Of a DNA stretch of 6,907 bases, positions 1 through 6,907 are shown piece by piece. The DNA is taken from positions 1-6,907 of the forward strand of contig JAICQC010000255.1 in NCBI GenBank assembly GCA_025938055.1, written 5' to 3'. The DNA is from Anaerolineales bacterium. Lineage in GTDB: Bacteria > Chloroflexota > Anaerolineae > Anaerolineales > Villigracilaceae. The stretch's first letter is position 1. Each line of letters opens with the position of its first letter. The notes below the pieces were generated by a model, which was not told the origin of the DNA, did no database searches, and saw only the letters and a list, made by a program, of their open reading frames with translations. Both the position numbers and the translations under genes were made by a program.

Positions 1-372
1 GAGACCCGGCGCGCCGGTAGTGTCGCCCACCGGGAAGAAAAGTCCGTATTCTTCCGCCAGCGCGATCTCTTCTGCCATTACCTCCAGCGAGCCAGGCTGA
101 ATGGAGATCAGAACGAAGTCTGCATCGTGGAGTGCGTCTTTCAAGTCCGGCACAGCGCGATAGCGCCAGCGCGATACAACCCTGGCATGGTTCGATTCGT
201 GCAGCCAGTTTCCTAGCTGCTCGTTTAGGCGGGCAGATTCCATATCAATATCATAGAGCGCGACCTCGCCGGTCAGGTCCGGGCAAAGCGCAAGGTCGAA
301 CATCAGTTTGCGCGCCCAGTCGCGGCTGCCGCCGCCGATATAGGCAATCTTGAGAGGAATGGGTACGGTCAT
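1..372 (-). CDS. GH4 family NAD-dependent glycosidase, LplD-like (putative alpha-galacturonidase), N-terminal part
   Basis: The visible 124 residues form a Rossmann NAD-binding start. Strand beta-1 reads KIAYIGGGS (residues 8-16, glycine-rich loop 13-16), followed by RDWA. Acidic residues D41 and D43 end beta-2, where GH4 enzymes hold the adenosine ribose. Next come ISIQPGS (89-95) and a GDTTG motif (116-120). This pattern belongs to glycoside hydrolase family 4, which cleaves glycosides by an NAD+- and Mn2+-dependent oxidation-elimination mechanism in the cytoplasm. From memory the N-terminus is closest to B. subtilis LplD, an alpha-galacturonidase, and the upstream LplA/B/C-type transporter genes agree with that. 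GH4 proteins usually have about 430-490 residues. The metal-ligand Cys and His lie beyond the window edge, so the substrate cannot be settled here. ATG 370-372 is the only plausible start, because the frame meets a stop at 412-414 with no ATG, GTG or TTG between. No Shine-Dalgarno sequence is visible. Family is secure; substrate is inferred. Confidence 0.88.
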   Translation of the reverse strand, partial: MTVPIPLKIAYIGGGSRDWARKLMFDLALCPDLTGEVALYDIDMESARLNEQLGNWLHESNHARVVSRWRYRAVPDLKDALHDADFVLISIQPGSLEVMAEEIALAEEYGLFFPVGDTTGAPGL

Positions 373-516
373 TTTGAAAGGGAGAGACTGGCTCTGTTCA
401 GTATGCTTCGACTACAGGTCTCTACGTGCATTCGACCTTCCGCTCAGCGCGAGGAAATTGTTTCAGATTAAGGCGGGCGGTTTGTGAGCCGCCCGCCTTT
501 TTCCAGCACGGGACCG
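373..516. other. Intergenic region between binding-protein gene and GH4 gene
   Basis: This gap of 144 bases separates the binding-protein stop codon from the GH4 start. Its only clear structure is the 470-499 hairpin. I see no convincing -35/-10 pair on the minus strand ahead of the GH4 gene and no ribosome binding site just upstream of it. GH4 expression may therefore depend on read-through past the hairpin or on a promoter that does not match the sigma-70 consensus. Confidence 0.6.
470..499 (-). terminator. GC-rich hairpin after the binding-protein gene (probable terminator or attenuator)
   Basis: There is a perfect 11-bp inverted repeat. The left arm is AAGGCGGGCGG (470-480), the right arm is CCGCCCGCCTT (489-499), and the loop is 8 bases. 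It starts about 17 bases past the TAA of the binding-protein gene. On the minus strand the right side of the stem is followed by TTAATCTG, a poor U-tract. On the plus strand the stem runs straight into five T (498-502), but no plus-strand gene ends here. It is probably a partial terminator or an mRNA-stabilising 3' hairpin that separates the levels of the transporter and GH4 messages. Confidence 0.72.
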
Positions 517-2166
517 TTACTCAAGGAGTCCGGCGTCGACCAACGCCTGTTTTGCAGAAGCTTCGTACTCTGCAGCACCCAGCGCGTCGAGACCGGCAAG
601 GTACTCCGCCCACGTCTCTTCGTTAAGTTCCTGCTGCCCGAGCACAAACTGGAGCATGCCTTCGTTATAGAAGCGGTCGAAGTCAGCTGCATTGGCAGGC
701 GGCAGAATCACCTGAATCCCGCGTCCATCCACCCAGGGCTGTTCCTGGAAGAACTGGAGGAAATTCATCGGCTCCATCAGGCGTCCGTTGAGGGTTTCGT
801 AGGTGGGATAACGAGCGGCAATTTCCTGCTCGGAGTTATAGAAGACGAGCTGGTTGCGCATCTGCGTGAAGGGTTGGCGTTCGGGGGCAGTGTACGCCTG
901 GGCAGGATCAAGCCCATCAGTGGAGATGTTGCCGTTGTCATCGATGATGAAGTTCACGCCCTCTTCGCCAAAGCCCAGCAGGTAGTAGCCATCAGTGGCG
1001 ATCCACTCCAGCAGGCGGGCGATCGCTTCCCCTTTACCGGCAGCCGCAGCCTGCTGTGAGACCGCGAAGATATTGCCTCGTCCGGTGTACACACCGTAGG
1101 ATGCTTCTCCATCGGGCCCCTGCGGTGCGGGCAGCGGGATCCACTCTCCATCGGGGAAGTTCGTATCGAACGGTTCATAGTTGGATTGGTTGGTGAGAGC
1201 GGCGAAGTCCTCCCACATAATGCCGAACGAACCCTGTTTCCAGCGAGCGCGGAAGTCATCGCGCGTCAGCGTGGGCCAGTCAGGATCGATCACCCCGGCA
1301 TCCACCAGCGACTTGAAATAGGCAAGCGCTTCCGGGTATTGTTCGCTTCTGACATTAAGCCCGAAGCTGGCGGGGTCGGTAAAATTCCAGACGCCCGGAA
1401 CGCCCCATGCGCCCATGATGAAGTCGAAGCGATTGCCGAGTCCCGGTCCGTTGATAAAACCGCCAAGCCCGTAGGTGTCGTTCTGGCCGTTCCCATCAGG
1501 GTCTTGTTCGGTGAACGCCGTAGCGACTGCGAGCAGTTCTTCGGTTGTTGTGGGCGCTTCGAGTCCCAGGTTATCCAGCCAGTCCTTGCGGATGACAAAG
1601 CCTTCGCGCTTCGGCAATGGAGGCGGTTCCGGGAAGCCGTATTGATGACCGTTGAAGGTGACCAGGTCAAGCGCCAACGGATCGTTGTAATGCGTCTCCA
1701 CGCGCACAGGCATGAGCAGCATCAAATCCTCAACGGGAGCCACCAGCCCGAGATCCACGAGACGCACCAGGGCGCCGCGCGCGTCATTGTTCGCGCTGAC
1801 CATCTGGAACAAGTCGGGCAGGTCGTTGGCAGCCGCGGCGGCGTTTAGTTTCGCTTCGCCATCTTCACCGGTAGGCACAATCACGTAGGTCAGGTTGATG
1901 TTGAGCTCATCGCGGATGATGTCGTAGGCGACCCAATCATCGGGTGGCGCGCCAGCTTCTGTCACAGTTGCCTGCGCCCAAAGTTCGATATCAACAGGTT
2001 CCGGCGGTGTTGTCGGTTCGGGCGCTGCAGTCGGTTCTTCAGCAGGTGGTTCGGTGGCCGGGGCTTCTGTGACGGGCGCCTCCGTCGGAGCAGCCGGCGC
2101 ACATGCCGCCAGGATCTGGCTGAGTACCAGAATAAATACGACAAGGACCATTTTCCAGTTTTTCAT
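517..2166 (-). CDS. ABC transporter substrate-binding lipoprotein (CUT1 class, LplA/YtcQ-like)
   Basis: This gene encodes 549 residues, in the usual range for the large LplA/YtcQ group of extracellular solute-binding proteins. It should capture an oligosaccharide outside the membrane and deliver it to the two permeases encoded upstream. Residues 1-21 are a lipoprotein signal peptide with basic K2 and K5, a hydrophobic core and the lipobox LAAC, giving lipidated C22. Residues 24-57 form a Pro/Glu/Ala/Thr-rich tether, a style common in Anaerolineae binding proteins. Family landmarks follow: FNGHQYGFP (171-179), VIRKDWLDNLGL (191-202) and the calcium-loop-like DPDGNGQND (222-230), which is typical of this group. 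The start at ATG 2164-2166 is supported by AGGAGA (2172-2177) five bases upstream. It is the last gene before the 470-499 hairpin, although binding-protein genes often come first in such operons. The ligand cannot be read from sequence. A galacturonide-type oligosaccharide is inferred from the LplD-like neighbour. Confidence 0.93.
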   Translation of the reverse strand: MKNWKMVLVVFILVLSQILAACAPAAPTEAPVTEAPATEPPAEEPTAAPEPTTPPEPVDIELWAQATVTEAGAPPDDWVAYDIIRDELNINLTYVIVPTGEDGEAKLNAAAAANDLPDLFQMVSANNDARGALVRLVDLGLVAPVEDLMLLMPVRVETHYNDPLALDLVTFNGHQYGFPEPPPLPKREGFVIRKDWLDNLGLEAPTTTEELLAVATAFTEQDPDGNGQNDTYGLGGFINGPGLGNRFDFIMGAWGVPGVWNFTDPASFGLNVRSEQYPEALAYFKSLVDAGVIDPDWPTLTRDDFRARWKQGSFGIMWEDFAALTNQSNYEPFDTNFPDGEWIPLPAPQGPDGEASYGVYTGRGNIFAVSQQAAAAGKGEAIARLLEWIATDGYYLLGFGEEGVNFIIDDNGNISTDGLDPAQAYTAPERQPFTQMRNQLVFYNSEQEIAARYPTYETLNGRLMEPMNFLQFFQEQPWVDGRGIQVILPPANAADFDRFYNEGMLQFVLGQQELNEETWAEYLAGLDALGAAEYEASAKQALVDAGLLE

Positions 2167-2171
2167 CTTCT

Positions 2172-2177
2172 TCTCCT
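2172..2177 (-). promoter_or_regulatory. Ribosome binding site of the binding-protein gene
   Basis: The minus strand reads AGGAGA five bases before the ATG at 2166, a strong Shine-Dalgarno match. It fixes the start that yields the well-formed lipoprotein signal peptide. Confidence 0.85.
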
Positions 2178-2251
2178 TTTGGTTGTTGGAAAGAGATTCT
2201 TACTCCTGGATTCTGTAGAGCAGGAGCAACAGGATGGATGGGATAGTATGT

Positions 2252-3130
2252 TTATTCCTTTACACCTCCAACCAGGGTACCCTTGGTGAAATAGCGCTGG
2301 ATCCACGGATAGATCAGGAACATGGGGATCATGGTGATCAGCACACCGGCAGCTTTCAGCGACTCAAGCGACGATGAGCTAAAAGCGTTGTATTCGACGT
2401 ACTCGTTGAAACTGGCTGAGATCAGAATATTGCGCAGCAGGACAGGTAAAGGCATCAGGTCGTTATCGTTCAAATAGAGCAGCGGCGTAAAGAACTCATT
2501 CCAGAAGTACACCGCGTAGAACAAGCCGATCGTCAGCAGGATGGGCTTCGACAGCGGTAGTATCACATGCCACAGGATTTGCAGTTCGTTCGCGCCGTCC
2601 AGCCGGGCGGCTTCCTTAAGGTCATCAGGCAGGCCTTCAAAGAAACTCATCATCACCAGAGTGTTATAGACGCTGACGGCGGGCGGCAGGATGATGGCAA
2701 GATAATTGTCCGTCAGCTTCATCCCGGTGATCAACAGGTATACGGGAATCAACCCGGGACTGAAAAGATAGGTAAAGAGTACGATCATCATGATCAATTT
2801 GCGCCCGGGCAGGTTGCGGGTGGAAAGTCCATAGGCGAGTGGGATTGTGAGGAACAGGCTGATGGCGGTCCCCATCAACGTGATCACCACACTGTTGAAC
2901 GCCGCCCGTGGAAACATCGAATGTCCCAGCAGCTGCCGGAAGGCTTCCGCGGTCCATTGGGTGGGCGAAAGGAAGAAAGGCACGCCTTCCCGCGTATAAA
3001 TATCGAGCGGCACGAAAGCCGTCACGATCACACGCCAGAAGGGGATCAGGATGGTGAGCAGGATGACCGTCAGGAAGATCGCCAGACCGATTTGAAACAC
3101 GATTGCGTCGCGGGTTCTTGTCTGCAACAT
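2252..3130 (-). CDS. Carbohydrate ABC transporter permease, LplC/YtcP type (COG0395-like)
   Basis: This is the second membrane subunit of a CUT1 sugar importer, with 292 residues, a normal length. Hydrophobic segments lie near residues 9-40, 77-102, 111-135, 142-162, 195-215 and 259-278, consistent with six membrane spans. The cytoplasmic EAA loop that docks the ATPase is intact: E173-A-A, G179, V189 (in place of Ile) and L191-P192 fit the consensus spacing exactly. The C-terminus KGTLVGGVKE (283-292) is a typical ending of this subfamily. I chose ATG 3128-3130 over an in-frame ATG at 3185-3187. The shorter start has AGGAGAG (3136-3142) at five-base spacing, and the longer one would overlap the upstream permease by 47 bases and add an untypical Arg-rich leader. 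The gap to the upstream permease is 10 bases, so the two are co-translated in one operon. Confidence 0.93.
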   Translation of the reverse strand: MLQTRTRDAIVFQIGLAIFLTVILLTILIPFWRVIVTAFVPLDIYTREGVPFFLSPTQWTAEAFRQLLGHSMFPRAAFNSVVITLMGTAISLFLTIPLAYGLSTRNLPGRKLIMMIVLFTYLFSPGLIPVYLLITGMKLTDNYLAIILPPAVSVYNTLVMMSFFEGLPDDLKEAARLDGANELQILWHVILPLSKPILLTIGLFYAVYFWNEFFTPLLYLNDNDLMPLPVLLRNILISASFNEYVEYNAFSSSSLESLKAAGVLITMIPMFLIYPWIQRYFTKGTLVGGVKE

Positions 3131-3135
3131 GGCGG

Positions 3136-3142
3136 CTCTCCT
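3136..3142 (-). promoter_or_regulatory. Ribosome binding site deciding the start of the LplC-type permease
   Basis: The minus strand reads AGGAGAG five bases before ATG 3130. It overlaps the TAG stop (3141-3143) of the preceding permease, an arrangement expected for translational coupling. It argues for the 292-residue start rather than the longer 311-residue frame. Confidence 0.85.
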
Positions 3143-4103
3143 AGTAAAGACTCTGCTGCGCCATACGCCTGGCGACCCGGTTTGCAACCAGGATCAACAC
3201 CAAGCCAATGATGCCTTTGAAGAAGCCCACGGCGGTTGCCAGGCTAAACTGGAACTGGAGGACGCCCTGACGATATACCCACGTATCGATGATGTCTCCC
3301 ACGCTGTAGACGGGCACCGAATACAGCACAAAGATCTGGTTGAAGCCCGCTTCGAGAATATGCCCCATACGCAGCAACGTGACAAGCACGATCACTGGCA
3401 GGATGCCTGGCAGCGAGATATACCAGATGCGCTGCAACGGCGTTGCACCATCCACGGCGGCAGCTTCATAAAGGTCCGGGCTGATCGCCAGCAGAGCCGC
3501 AAGATACAGGATCGTGCTCCAGCCTGTCTCCTTCCAGATGTCCGAAAGGATGACGACCCAGCGGAAATGGTCGGGAGAGGTGAGGAATGGAATCGGTTCT
3601 CCGCCAAAGCTTTCGATGACTGAGTTTAATAATCCGTTGCCTGGCGAGAGGATGGTCAGCATGACCCCGAACATGATCACCCAAGAGAGAAAATGCGGCA
3701 GGTAGATCACCGTTTGCACGAAGGTCCGGAAGCGGTAAAACCACGTCTCATGGAGGGCGATCGCACAGATCACCGCCAGCGGCAGCCCCAGGACAAGCTT
3801 TGCCACGCTGAAGATGATCGTGTTCGTCATCAGATCCGTGAAGTAAAACGAGTTGACGAAGGTCTCGAAGTGCTTGAACCCCACCCACGGGCTTCCGACG
3901 ACGCCCAGCAGCGGCTTGAAATCCTTGAAAGCGATCTGCGCGTTCCATAGAGGTCCATATTTGAAGACCAGAAAGTAGATAATCGTTGGCAGCATCAGGA
4001 AATAGAGCCAGCGCTGCCGCCACATACTGCGCAGTAATTTTTTGATATTCAATTTTCCCGCGGATGAGACTTTGGATGGAAGCGTGAGGGTTTTCACTGT
4101 CAT
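3141..4103 (-). CDS. Carbohydrate ABC transporter permease, LplB/YteP type (COG4209-like)
   Basis: This is the first membrane subunit of the CUT1 importer and the first gene of the minus-strand operon, with 320 residues, a normal length for the family. A basic N-terminal stretch is followed by hydrophobic segments near 33-52, 95-117, 130-151, 183-207, 231-247 and 291-309, consistent with six spans. Family landmarks include LPTIIYFLVFKYGPL (38-52), where the usual motif ends in Y-x-P, and F59-K60-D61-F62. The EAA loop matches the consensus perfectly: E213-A-A, G219, I229 and L231-P232. It would pair with the LplC-type permease downstream to form the translocation pore. The start at ATG 4101-4103 has GGAG (4111-4114) seven bases upstream. 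No ATPase gene lies in the window, so a shared MsmX-like ATPase encoded elsewhere is inferred. Confidence 0.94.
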   Translation of the reverse strand: MTVKTLTLPSKVSSAGKLNIKKLLRSMWRQRWLYFLMLPTIIYFLVFKYGPLWNAQIAFKDFKPLLGVVGSPWVGFKHFETFVNSFYFTDLMTNTIIFSVAKLVLGLPLAVICAIALHETWFYRFRTFVQTVIYLPHFLSWVIMFGVMLTILSPGNGLLNSVIESFGGEPIPFLTSPDHFRWVVILSDIWKETGWSTILYLAALLAISPDLYEAAAVDGATPLQRIWYISLPGILPVIVLVTLLRMGHILEAGFNQIFVLYSVPVYSVGDIIDTWVYRQGVLQFQFSLATAVGFFKGIIGLVLILVANRVARRMAQQSLY

Positions 4104-4358
4104 TTGTATTCTCCAATAAAGCAGGTTTCGGGTCGTTCACAGCCCAAACCGCCTTCACCTGAAGAGATGATGCAGAGAATCACAATAGCATCGTAGCAGG
4201 TGGGGCTTGGATTTTGGCGTTGCCCACTTGGACAAAACCGTCCTGCTTGGGTGGCTGCTCCTGGCGCCTGCGCACTGCAAGCTACCAGATCGACCAATCC
4301 ATAGTAAACTTATTTTGCAGAGTACCACACACATGTCTTACAAGGACAGTTCAACGGA

Positions 4359-4383
4359 GCCGTGATTCTGCTGGAATCACGGC
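4359..4383. repeat. Perfect 10-bp inverted repeat, 5-base spacer, in the kinase upstream region
   Basis: The left arm GCCGTGATTC (4359-4368) and right arm GAATCACGGC (4374-4383) are exact reverse complements, flanking TGCTG. The element ends 34 bases before the kinase ATG. It is not followed by a T-run, so an intrinsic terminator is unlikely. It could be an operator for a dimeric regulator or a hairpin in the 5' leader of the kinase message. Confidence 0.75.
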
Positions 4384-4401
4384 GGAGAAGTGTATCCATC
4401 T

Positions 4402-4405
4402 GAGG
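4402..4405 (+). promoter_or_regulatory. Weak ribosome binding site of the sensor kinase
   Basis: GAGG lies 12 bases before ATG 4418, a longer spacing than usual. The in-frame TAA at 4406-4408 rules out any start further upstream, so ATG 4418 is the first possible start despite the poor spacing. Confidence 0.5.
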
Positions 4406-4417
4406 TAACACGCAGCC

Positions 4418-6907
4418 ATGCCGACATCTCCAGCCACTGAGCGAGCAACCCTGGGATTTCTGCTTGCGAGCCTGCACACCGGCGCCAGCCTCGTCATCTG
4501 GCCCAGCCTGCTGGACGCTGCCGAGCGCCACGACGCCAATCTCATCTGCTTCCCGGGGGGACGCCTGCACGCTGCGGATTCCTTTGAAACCCAACGAAAC
4601 GCAATCTTTGATCTGGCAAGCGACAAACGCCTCGACGGCTTGATCACCTGGTCCTCCTCTCTGGGCGGCGTGCTCGGACCCGCCGAGATTCGAGCCTTCC
4701 ACCAACGCTACCATCCCCTCCCGATGGTCAGCCTGGCACAGTTCATGGAGGGCATGCCAACCGTCTCGATCAACAGTTACCTGGGTATGCGTGCGCTGCT
4801 CGTCCATTTAATAGAAGAGCATGGGTTCCACCGTCTCGCATTTATCCGCGGACCCGAGGAACATTACTATGCGCAGGAACGCTACCGCGCCTATCTCGAT
4901 GCCCTGCAAGCCTTCAACCTGCCTCTCATCCCCGAACTGGTGACCCGCCCTCTGCCCTGGGAGGGAGGCGTCGAAGCGATCGAGATCCTGCTCGACGAAC
5001 GCGGACTGAAACCCGGCAGGGATTTCGATGCGGTCGTTGCGGTAAGCGATATGATGGCGCTCTGGGCAATGAAGACCCTGCAGGGGCGCGGCTTCGAAGT
5101 CCCCACGGAGGTGGCGGTCACCGGGTTCAACAACACAATCGAAGAACGGCTGGCGACCCCGCCGCTCACCACCGTGGACCTTCCGTTTTATGAGCAGGCC
5201 TCCCAGGCAATGGAACTGCTCCTGCAGCAGTTGCGCGGGGAATCCGTCCCGGCGTTGATCACGCTGCCGTCCCAGCTGATCGTACGGCAGTCGTGCGGCT
5301 GCCCGTCCGCAGCTATCGCGCTGGCATCGTATTCTCCGTTCGATGAAACAGAAAATGCCGAAGAGAAGTTCAGCCTCGATGAAGTGCGGACGGGCTGCCT
5401 GGCAGAAATGCAGGCGGTGACCGGTCTTGATCAGCAGAAGGCGGACGAGTGGCTGGGTTCCATCTTTGACGCCATCCTCCAGGATACCTCGCTCAACAAA
5501 GGTCACAACAAAGTCCGTTCCATCTTTTTATCCGTTATGGGCAGCGTCATCGATCAGGGGATGGGTTCCGCCCATGACGTGCTGCGCTGGCAAAACGCGA
5601 TTTCCGTCCTGAGGCGTAGCGTTTTGCAGTACGTCCCGGCATCAGAAAGAATGCTGGTGGAGGAATTGCTTTCACAGGCGCGCGTGGTTGTCGGAGAGGC
5701 GGTCCAGCGCTCGCTTGCCTACGCACAGTGGCAGGCAGATCGCGAGACCGAGCATTTCCGTGAGACGAACCGCGCCCTGCTGACAACGTTCGATGTGCAG
5801 CAGCTCACCGACGTACTCGTCGAACGATTGCCCACACTCGACATCCCGAGCGTCTACCTGATCACGTATGAAGAGCCCACTGATGCCGAAGTACCCGAGC
5901 AGGCGCGTCTGCTGCTGGCGTACACCGACGGGGAACGCGCCTCCATCGAGGAAGGCGGGCTGCGGTTTTCCACGCACGAGATCGTCCCAGCGGAGCTTCT
6001 TCCAAAGGACCGCCGGTACAGCCTTGTGGTGGAGCCGCTGTACTTCCAGGATAAATCGCTGGGATATGTGGTCTTCGAGATCGGTCCGCACGATGGCAAT
6101 ATCTACGAATTACTCCGCAACAATTTAAGCAGCGCCCTGCAGGGAGCTATGCTCTTCCAGGAGATCCAGCAAGCCCGCCTTGATGCGGAAAAAGCGGACC
6201 GCATCAAGACCCGCCTGCTGGCAAACGTCAGCCACGAAATGCGCACACCGTTGAATATCATCACCGGCTATACACAAAACGCGCTGCAAGCCCCAAACAA
6301 ATATGGCAGTGAACTTCCCTCTTCATTGCAAAACGATCTGCTTCAAATCCAAAGCAACGCCGAGCACCAGCTGCGCGTGATCAACGACCTGCTGGATCTC
6401 TCGCGCGCCGAAATCGATGAGCTCGATCTCTCCCTTGAGCTGCTGGACCCGCGCCAGTTGCTGATGGACGCGTTCCACAGCCTTGCCGGTCAATCCACCT
6501 CCCCAGACATCGAGTGGAAGATCGAGATCCCGGAGCGCCTGCCGCAGATCAGAGCCGACGCCGTGCGCCTGCGGCAGATCTTCCTGAACCTGCTGAGCAA
6601 TGCAAGGAAATATACGGAGCGGGGGCTGATCACGCTGGGTGCAGAGGTGGCGCCGCCACAGATCCATTTCTGGGTAAGTGACACCGGGCTGGGCATCGAC
6701 GCGGAACAAAAGGACCATATCTTCGAACCTTTTGTGACGATCAATGACAACCGCCGCATCGCAGGGGGAATCGGGCTGGGACTCTCGATCACGCGCCATC
6801 TGGTTGCGCTGCACGGCGGCACGATGAATCTGGACACCCAGCTGGAGCAGGGTTCCACCTTCCACATTTACCTGCCCCTCCCTGCGCTCGACCAGGAGAA
6901 GCCTGCC
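4418..6907 (+). CDS. Histidine kinase with fused LacI/GalR-type sugar-sensing domain and GAF-like domain (C-terminus cut by window)
   Basis: The frame is open for 830 codons to the window edge. Residues 10-290 form a LacI/GalR-type periplasmic-binding fold without the usual helix-turn-helix head. Landmarks are beta-1 at 11-18, RGP (144-146), R155 in the helix that often contacts ligand, SD (210-211), VP (228-229), GFNN (236-239) and PPLTTV (248-253). The domain closes with QSCGC (291-295). Residues 318-445 are a mainly helical region I do not recognise. About 450-575 is GAF-like, then a signalling helix (578-600). The kinase core is complete: H-box NVSHEMRTPL with phospho-acceptor H606, N-box with N724 and N728, G1 box D755-T-G-L-G, F-box F769-E-P-F and G2 box G784-I-G-L-G-L. 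No signal peptide or membrane span is present, so it should be cytoplasmic and autophosphorylate in response to an imported sugar. It is divergent from the transporter operon, which suggests it controls that operon through a response regulator outside the window. A receiver domain may follow after residue 830. Confidence 0.92.
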   Translation, partial: MPTSPATERATLGFLLASLHTGASLVIWPSLLDAAERHDANLICFPGGRLHAADSFETQRNAIFDLASDKRLDGLITWSSSLGGVLGPAEIRAFHQRYHPLPMVSLAQFMEGMPTVSINSYLGMRALLVHLIEEHGFHRLAFIRGPEEHYYAQERYRAYLDALQAFNLPLIPELVTRPLPWEGGVEAIEILLDERGLKPGRDFDAVVAVSDMMALWAMKTLQGRGFEVPTEVAVTGFNNTIEERLATPPLTTVDLPFYEQASQAMELLLQQLRGESVPALITLPSQLIVRQSCGCPSAAIALASYSPFDETENAEEKFSLDEVRTGCLAEMQAVTGLDQQKADEWLGSIFDAILQDTSLNKGHNKVRSIFLSVMGSVIDQGMGSAHDVLRWQNAISVLRRSVLQYVPASERMLVEELLSQARVVVGEAVQRSLAYAQWQADRETEHFRETNRALLTTFDVQQLTDVLVERLPTLDIPSVYLITYEEPTDAEVPEQARLLLAYTDGERASIEEGGLRFSTHEIVPAELLPKDRRYSLVVEPLYFQDKSLGYVVFEIGPHDGNIYELLRNNLSSALQGAMLFQEIQQARLDAEKADRIKTRLLANVSHEMRTPLNIITGYTQNALQAPNKYGSELPSSLQNDLLQIQSNAEHQLRVINDLLDLSRAEIDELDLSLELLDPRQLLMDAFHSLAGQSTSPDIEWKIEIPERLPQIRADAVRLRQIFLNLLSNARKYTERGLITLGAEVAPPQIHFWVSDTGLGIDAEQKDHIFEPFVTINDNRRIAGGIGLGLSITRHLVALHGGTMNLDTQLEQGSTFHIYLPLPALDQEKPA

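Follow-up and report, generated by a model that had tools for sequence, protein, structure and literature searches.

The gene that starts at position 4418 of the window (i.e., the whole 6,907-nucleotide stretch of Anaerolineales DNA that was analyzed) very probably encodes an all-in-one hybrid two-component regulator, in which a LacI/GalR-type effector domain feeds a histidine kinase and, to judge from homologues, a receiver and an AraC-type DNA-binding domain follow on the same chain. We consider it likely, from sequence and gene neighborhood, that this protein is a soluble, one-chain, sugar-sensing regulator that activates the adjacent importer operon through a candidate operator at 4207-4240. 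The gene is truncated by the window end, its 3′ part amounting to about 350 codons in relatives (which are about 1180 amino acids long); if this copy resembles them, roughly 70% of the single-chain hybrid two-component regulator would lie in the window. The features of the window are as follows:

4418-6907, plus strand: putative hybrid sensor kinase/activator gene, first 830 codons, frame still open at the final base of the window
4442-5299, plus strand: LacI/GalR-type effector (sugar-binding) domain, residues 9-294
5291-5302, plus strand: SCGC motif (residues 292-295), whose two cysteines are invariant across 112 aligned sequences
5309-5782, plus strand: helical region (residues 298-455) without a listed Pfam family
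5783-6097, plus strand: GAF-like domain, residues ~456-560, diverged
6206-6412, plus strand: HisKA domain, residues 597-665, with the H606 codon at 6233-6235
6557-6883, plus strand: HATPase_c domain, residues 714-822
4207-4240, plus strand: candidate operator, direct repeat TTGGAY-N5-CG with a period of 21 bp, halves at 4207-4219 and 4228-4240
4190-4195, minus strand: -10-like box of the importer operon (TACGAT), 11 bp past the operator
3141-4103, minus strand: YteP-like ABC permease (BPD_transp_1)
2252-3187, minus strand: YtcP-like ABC permease (BPD_transp_1)
517-2166, minus strand: solute-binding lipoprotein-like protein (SBP_bac_8)
1-372, minus strand: family 4 glycosidase (GH4), N-terminal part only

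Domain architecture and cellular location

An initial structure model of all 830 residues, built on 57 sequences, was poor in its sensor part, and a second was therefore made for residues 1-592 with a more diverse alignment. This model, together with a structure search, places a LacI/GalR effector fold at residues 9-294; the periplasmic-binding-protein-like effector domain is also recognized by Pfam, and CcpA-type structures are among its nearest relatives in both fold and sequence. The effector domain begins at about residue 9, and Pfam found no LacI helix-turn-helix family in the protein, in agreement with the earlier note, which had described a LacI-type effector domain devoid of its DNA-binding head. 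The SCGC motif sits directly after the sensor domain. Residues 298-455 are helical in the predicted structure and correspond to no Pfam family that we could find. The segment that follows (residues ~456-560) aligns, at a probability of 82% in profile comparison, with GAF domains that Pfam identifies in other members of the family; it has no Pfam hit to the GAF family itself, the listed structure-search matches all fell on the LacI domain and showed no similar fold for this segment or the helical one, and a PDB sequence search with this part returned a single match (E 0.11), which was set aside. The helical and probably GAF-like region that had been proposed finds support, as does the claim of a full kinase core: HisKA and HATPase_c are complete with their catalytic motifs, H606 included, by both Pfam and alignment.

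The earlier note did not recognize that the window truncates the gene; full-length homologues extend further, into a receiver and an AraC helix-turn-helix (HTH). Among the best 120 of 1331 homologues, the receiver occurs in all 120 and the AraC HTH in 119, the sole exception being marked partial; in a second listing, the AraC family was present in 113 of the best 120 of 877. That the same domain set recurs in the 120 best of the 1331 rules out an assembly fusion of two genes, a possibility that had been raised at the outset. Six full-length relatives come from Chloroflexi/Anaerolineales genomes, with 64-77% identity in the best segment. In homologue P0001, Pfam matches a receiver at 949-1031 and an AraC HTH at 1102-1180, and 34 sequences share, without variation, the receiver residues D953, D954, D999, S1029, and K1052. 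About 120 residues separate the kinase from the receiver in homologues; in P0001 this stretch (826-945) keeps an Asp and a Lys, lacks the acidic pair, and shows a weak profile match to the true receiver (probability 25%, E 8e-4), so that it may be read as a degenerate receiver. The alignments used 56 of 120, 34 of 120, and 111 of 240 listed homologues, picked for spread. Since full-length homologues add a receiver and an AraC HTH, the His-to-Asp signal most likely stays inside one chain or dimer.

Only CAC GCA GCC lies between an in-frame TAA and the ATG of the regulator, and this stop excludes a signal peptide upstream of the start codon. By simple hydropathy, no membrane span is evident in the regulator (best value 1.51, vs. 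2.38-2.74 in the permeases). Hydropathy windows of 1.6 or more occur in 43 of 114 long homologues and were traced to their peptides, which we read as receiver, sensor, or GAF-like segments rather than spans. The regulator is thus probably located in the cytosol, as had been suggested.

Importer locus and candidate operator

Neighborhoods were compared at 19 regulator loci with at least 52% identity (the window, L001-L006, L051-L056, and L157-L162); L007-L009, which are kinase-only matches, were excluded from the counts. In 16 of the 19, an importer is found no more than 1.6 kb from the regulator, divergently in 11 and in tandem in five (L053, L055, L056, L161, and L162); in L005, L052, and L054 the contig stops before the importer position. 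These 16 importer loci include a GH105-like gene in 14 (PF07470 in the two scanned), GH28 in 10, and GH4 in nine, counts to be read with the window and L003 cut inside the operon and L161 covered only into its GH105-like gene; the L002 importer locus has no GH4 gene. The GH28, GH105, and GH4 enzymes of L001 have no hydrophobic N-terminus and hence look cytosolic. The permeases, which we take to be YteP- and YtcP-like from gene order and the set of functions, and the accompanying GH88/105, GH28, and GH4 enzymes lead us to infer a rhamnogalacturonan/pectin-oligosaccharide locus. As listed, the two permease reading frames overlap at 3141-3187, and because the YtcP-like one begins with TTG, its actual start may lie further downstream. 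No ABC ATPase was found among the four importer-operon proteins scanned (window 1-4103, minus strand); a shared ATPase elsewhere in the genome, like MsmX in B. subtilis, is possible.

Six loci (the window, L001-L004, and L006) share a conserved repeat, TTGGAY-N5-CG-N8-TTGGAY-N5-CG, in the spacer between importer and regulator, and the window contains one mismatch-free occurrence, at 4207-4240. The repeat, with a -10-like box 11 bp on, is present, tandem orders included, in 16 of the 17 loci with available DNA, six of which defined the pattern, and since the loci are kin to each other this agreement is partly non-independent. Outside the pattern definition, eight of 11 loci depart from it by at most one mismatch (none in L158 and L162; one in L005, L051, L055, L056, L159, and L160), L157 has two and L161 three, and L053 offers no more than a candidate with four mismatches, where the operator would be expected, a grade of match that unrelated loci gave nine times in 514 kb. 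When the gap was varied across the 17 loci, 14 matches were obtained at a gap of 8, one at 7, and none at 5, 6, 9, 10, or 11.

On the importer strand, a TAnnnT box starts exactly 11 bp past the operator in 15 of 15 loci; L005 has it too. This box, which reads TATAAT in several loci, was absent from the initial search pattern. In L055, L056, L161, and L162 the operator lies between regulator and importer, which makes it part of the importer promoter. Neither a sigma-70 promoter pair nor a terminator was detected at 4050-4450; the missing pair counts against the model proposed below, and the lack of a canonical -35/-10 pair also fits a promoter requiring help. Spacer blocks CCTTCACCTG (4152-4161, importer side) and CCATAGTAAACT (4299-4310, regulator side) are common to five of the six loci.

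A profile search of eight genomes recovered one strong operator in each (E 5e-8 or better) and no second one below E 0.02; because the strong sites had contributed to the profile, the informative part of this result is that no further sites appeared. A two-mismatch pattern search of 12 genomes proved too loose (426 matches vs. 289 in the reversed control) and was rejected. Among the matches listed, one exact copy of the operator pattern lies elsewhere, in G001 contig 75 (L096), off the importer locus; this copy and the want of a clear operator in L053 both count against the proposed model. In comparative work on rhamnose regulons, the motifs of AraC-family regulators are described as 21-bp-periodic direct repeats (PMC3870299), and this likeness, together with linkage, suggests that the operator is bound by the AraC domain of the regulator.

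Proposed mechanism and the wider family

The complete chain would run from the LacI-type effector through the helical and GAF-like domains, HisKA/HATPase, and the degenerate-receiver-like segment to the true receiver and the AraC domain. The molecule sensed would be a sugar derived from pectin, most likely a rhamnogalacturonan oligosaccharide or disaccharide brought in by the neighboring importer, and its binding to the LacI-type domain in the cytosol would alter the kinase state of the dimer; H606 would then pass phosphate to the receiver in its own chain or dimer, and binding to the direct repeat at 4207-4240 would fall to the AraC domain. Because the promoter-proximal half-site occupies the -35 position, the protein should activate the importer and glycosidase operon, which would constitute a local positive feedback. 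The earlier note had envisaged phosphorelay control of the divergent importer operon: control of the operon is now backed by a conserved candidate operator, whereas a separate relay gives way to transfer, most likely within the chain or dimer, to the protein's own AraC domain.

The alternative that survives best, although we judge it unlikely, is that the LacI-type domain responds to something else than the imported oligosaccharide, for instance a phosphorylated sugar, a product late in the pathway, or a partner protein, and so reports metabolic state rather than uptake. CcpA binds P-Ser-HPr, and the place of CcpA-type structures among the closest folds and sequences, with a ligand unreadable from sequence, gives this idea some appeal; however, the regulator keeps company with a single set of importer and glycosidase genes at 16 of 19 loci and with one strong operator per genome in eight of eight (sites that had helped build the profile), such that control looks local. 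Less probable still is that another regulator binds the direct repeat, or that the hybrid kinase represses the operon, either of which would retain a cytosolic sensor kinase. An operator overlapping the -35 position could block RNA polymerase, but the repeat shares its 21-bp direct-repeat form with the AraC-family sites described in PMC3870299, it follows the regulator gene through divergent and tandem orders, and the absence of a canonical promoter pair again fits a promoter that needs help. Although the window stops just past the kinase and a distant member (L075) has no domain after it, a plain cytosolic sensor kinase ending there and signaling to a separate response regulator is highly improbable, given a reading frame open through the last base and the near-universal receiver and AraC domain on the same chain in the 120 listed close homologues.

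If the protein is indeed a one-chain activator of the importer operon, it should read sugar already delivered by the importer, and it offers a regulator/operator pair for which a promoter geometry is predicted, from a phylum, the Chloroflexota, whose regulation is to our knowledge little studied. In that it would be a soluble hybrid kinase, sugar binding, phosphotransfer, and DNA binding would be measurable in one chain.

At least 86 of 396 genomes of the class contain a match at E 1e-60, and at least 10 of 400 a match at E 1e-200, both lower bounds because two candidates were scored per genome; by hand count, a single match spans sensor and kinase (from residue 115 or before to 815 or beyond) in 47 of 396. 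Ten neighbor proteins were scanned at nine distant loci: oligopeptide-type importer parts (SBP_bac_5, oligo_HPY, BPD_transp_1_N) occur in six of the nine, and three have CUT2-type parts (BPD_transp_2 or double ABC_tran), with GH32 present as well in one of those three. The linkage is thus to ABC importers at large: CUT1-like ones accompany the regulator in the clade of the window, and these other types stand beside the distant members examined. Outputs vary as well: among 14 family members scanned, the kinase-receiver-AraC form appears once, in L058; elsewhere the sensor module is coupled to PAS-kinase-receivers-Hpt in L074 and L076, GAF-kinase-receivers in L077, PAS-kinase in L083, GAF-kinase in L085, a kinase only in L075, and a SpoIIE phosphatase in L081. 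Six proteins of L078, L079, L080, and L082 have no output recognized by Pfam at E 0.001, most of them having GAF/PAS repeats. Four sensor-module genes lie on one strand inside 17 kb at L082 (1-17025, minus strand). One input module on various outputs provides natural chimeras for learning how a LacI-type domain drives a kinase.

We advance, with evenly divided confidence, the generalization that the Anaerolineae own a large class of soluble sugar-sensing phosphorelay regulators built on a mobile cassette (LacI-type domain with SCGC, helical, and GAF-like parts), with kinase-receiver-AraC, PAS-kinase-receiver-Hpt, or SpoIIE outputs, paired with CUT1-like, oligopeptide-type, or CUT2-type importers, and forming a cytosolic counterpart of the hybrid two-component systems (HTCS) of Bacteroidetes. 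If true, the Anaerolineae class would read glycans after import and the Bacteroidetes HTCS before it.

Comparison with known regulators

Public annotation already names such proteins by their domains. Studies of them were not found in the open-access literature, and titles and abstract openings there, as well as the accessible part of a census (PMC1183210), yielded no description of a LacI-type sensor on a histidine kinase; the parts are known, and their combination and the cytosolic sensing are new to us.

HTCS are one-chain regulators controlling an adjacent glycan-use locus (PMC11253607, PMC3404733), the glycan-responsive ones described in PMC11253607, PMC3404733, and PMC3243724 sit in the membrane and sense sugars that are outside the cytosol, and in BT1754 the fructose-binding sensor of about 300 residues has a periplasmic-binding-protein fold (PMC3243724). 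BT1754 appears to be the nearest described relative in logic. As in Bacteroides HTCS, sensor, histidine kinase, receiver, and AraC domain would be united in a single chain, the latter two here taken from homologues; unlike those membrane proteins with periplasmic sensors, the regulator has neither a signal peptide nor an evident span, would sense through a LacI/GalR-type effector domain, and carries helical and GAF-like domains between its sensor and kinase. The contrast that the earlier note had drawn with the Bacteroidetes systems consequently stands for the type and location of the sensor and fails for the output half, which is of the same kind.

The locus resembles the YtcQP-YteP locus of B. 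subtilis in joining an ABC importer to pectin-oligosaccharide enzymes. Related B. subtilis genes are under a membrane two-component system, whereas the candidate regulator here is a single soluble protein. Unlike the LacI/GalR repressors (CcpA, PurR, LacI, CelR), the regulator has no LacI HTH head and its output is a kinase. In E. coli XylR, a cytosolic LacI/GalR-type sugar domain is N-terminal and an AraC DNA-binding domain C-terminal, with, as far as we know, no kinase or receiver between them. The presence of HisKA and HATPase_c sets the regulator apart from such XylR-type AraC activators, and it would thus resemble an E. coli XylR with a phosphorelay inserted between sensor and DNA-binding domain.
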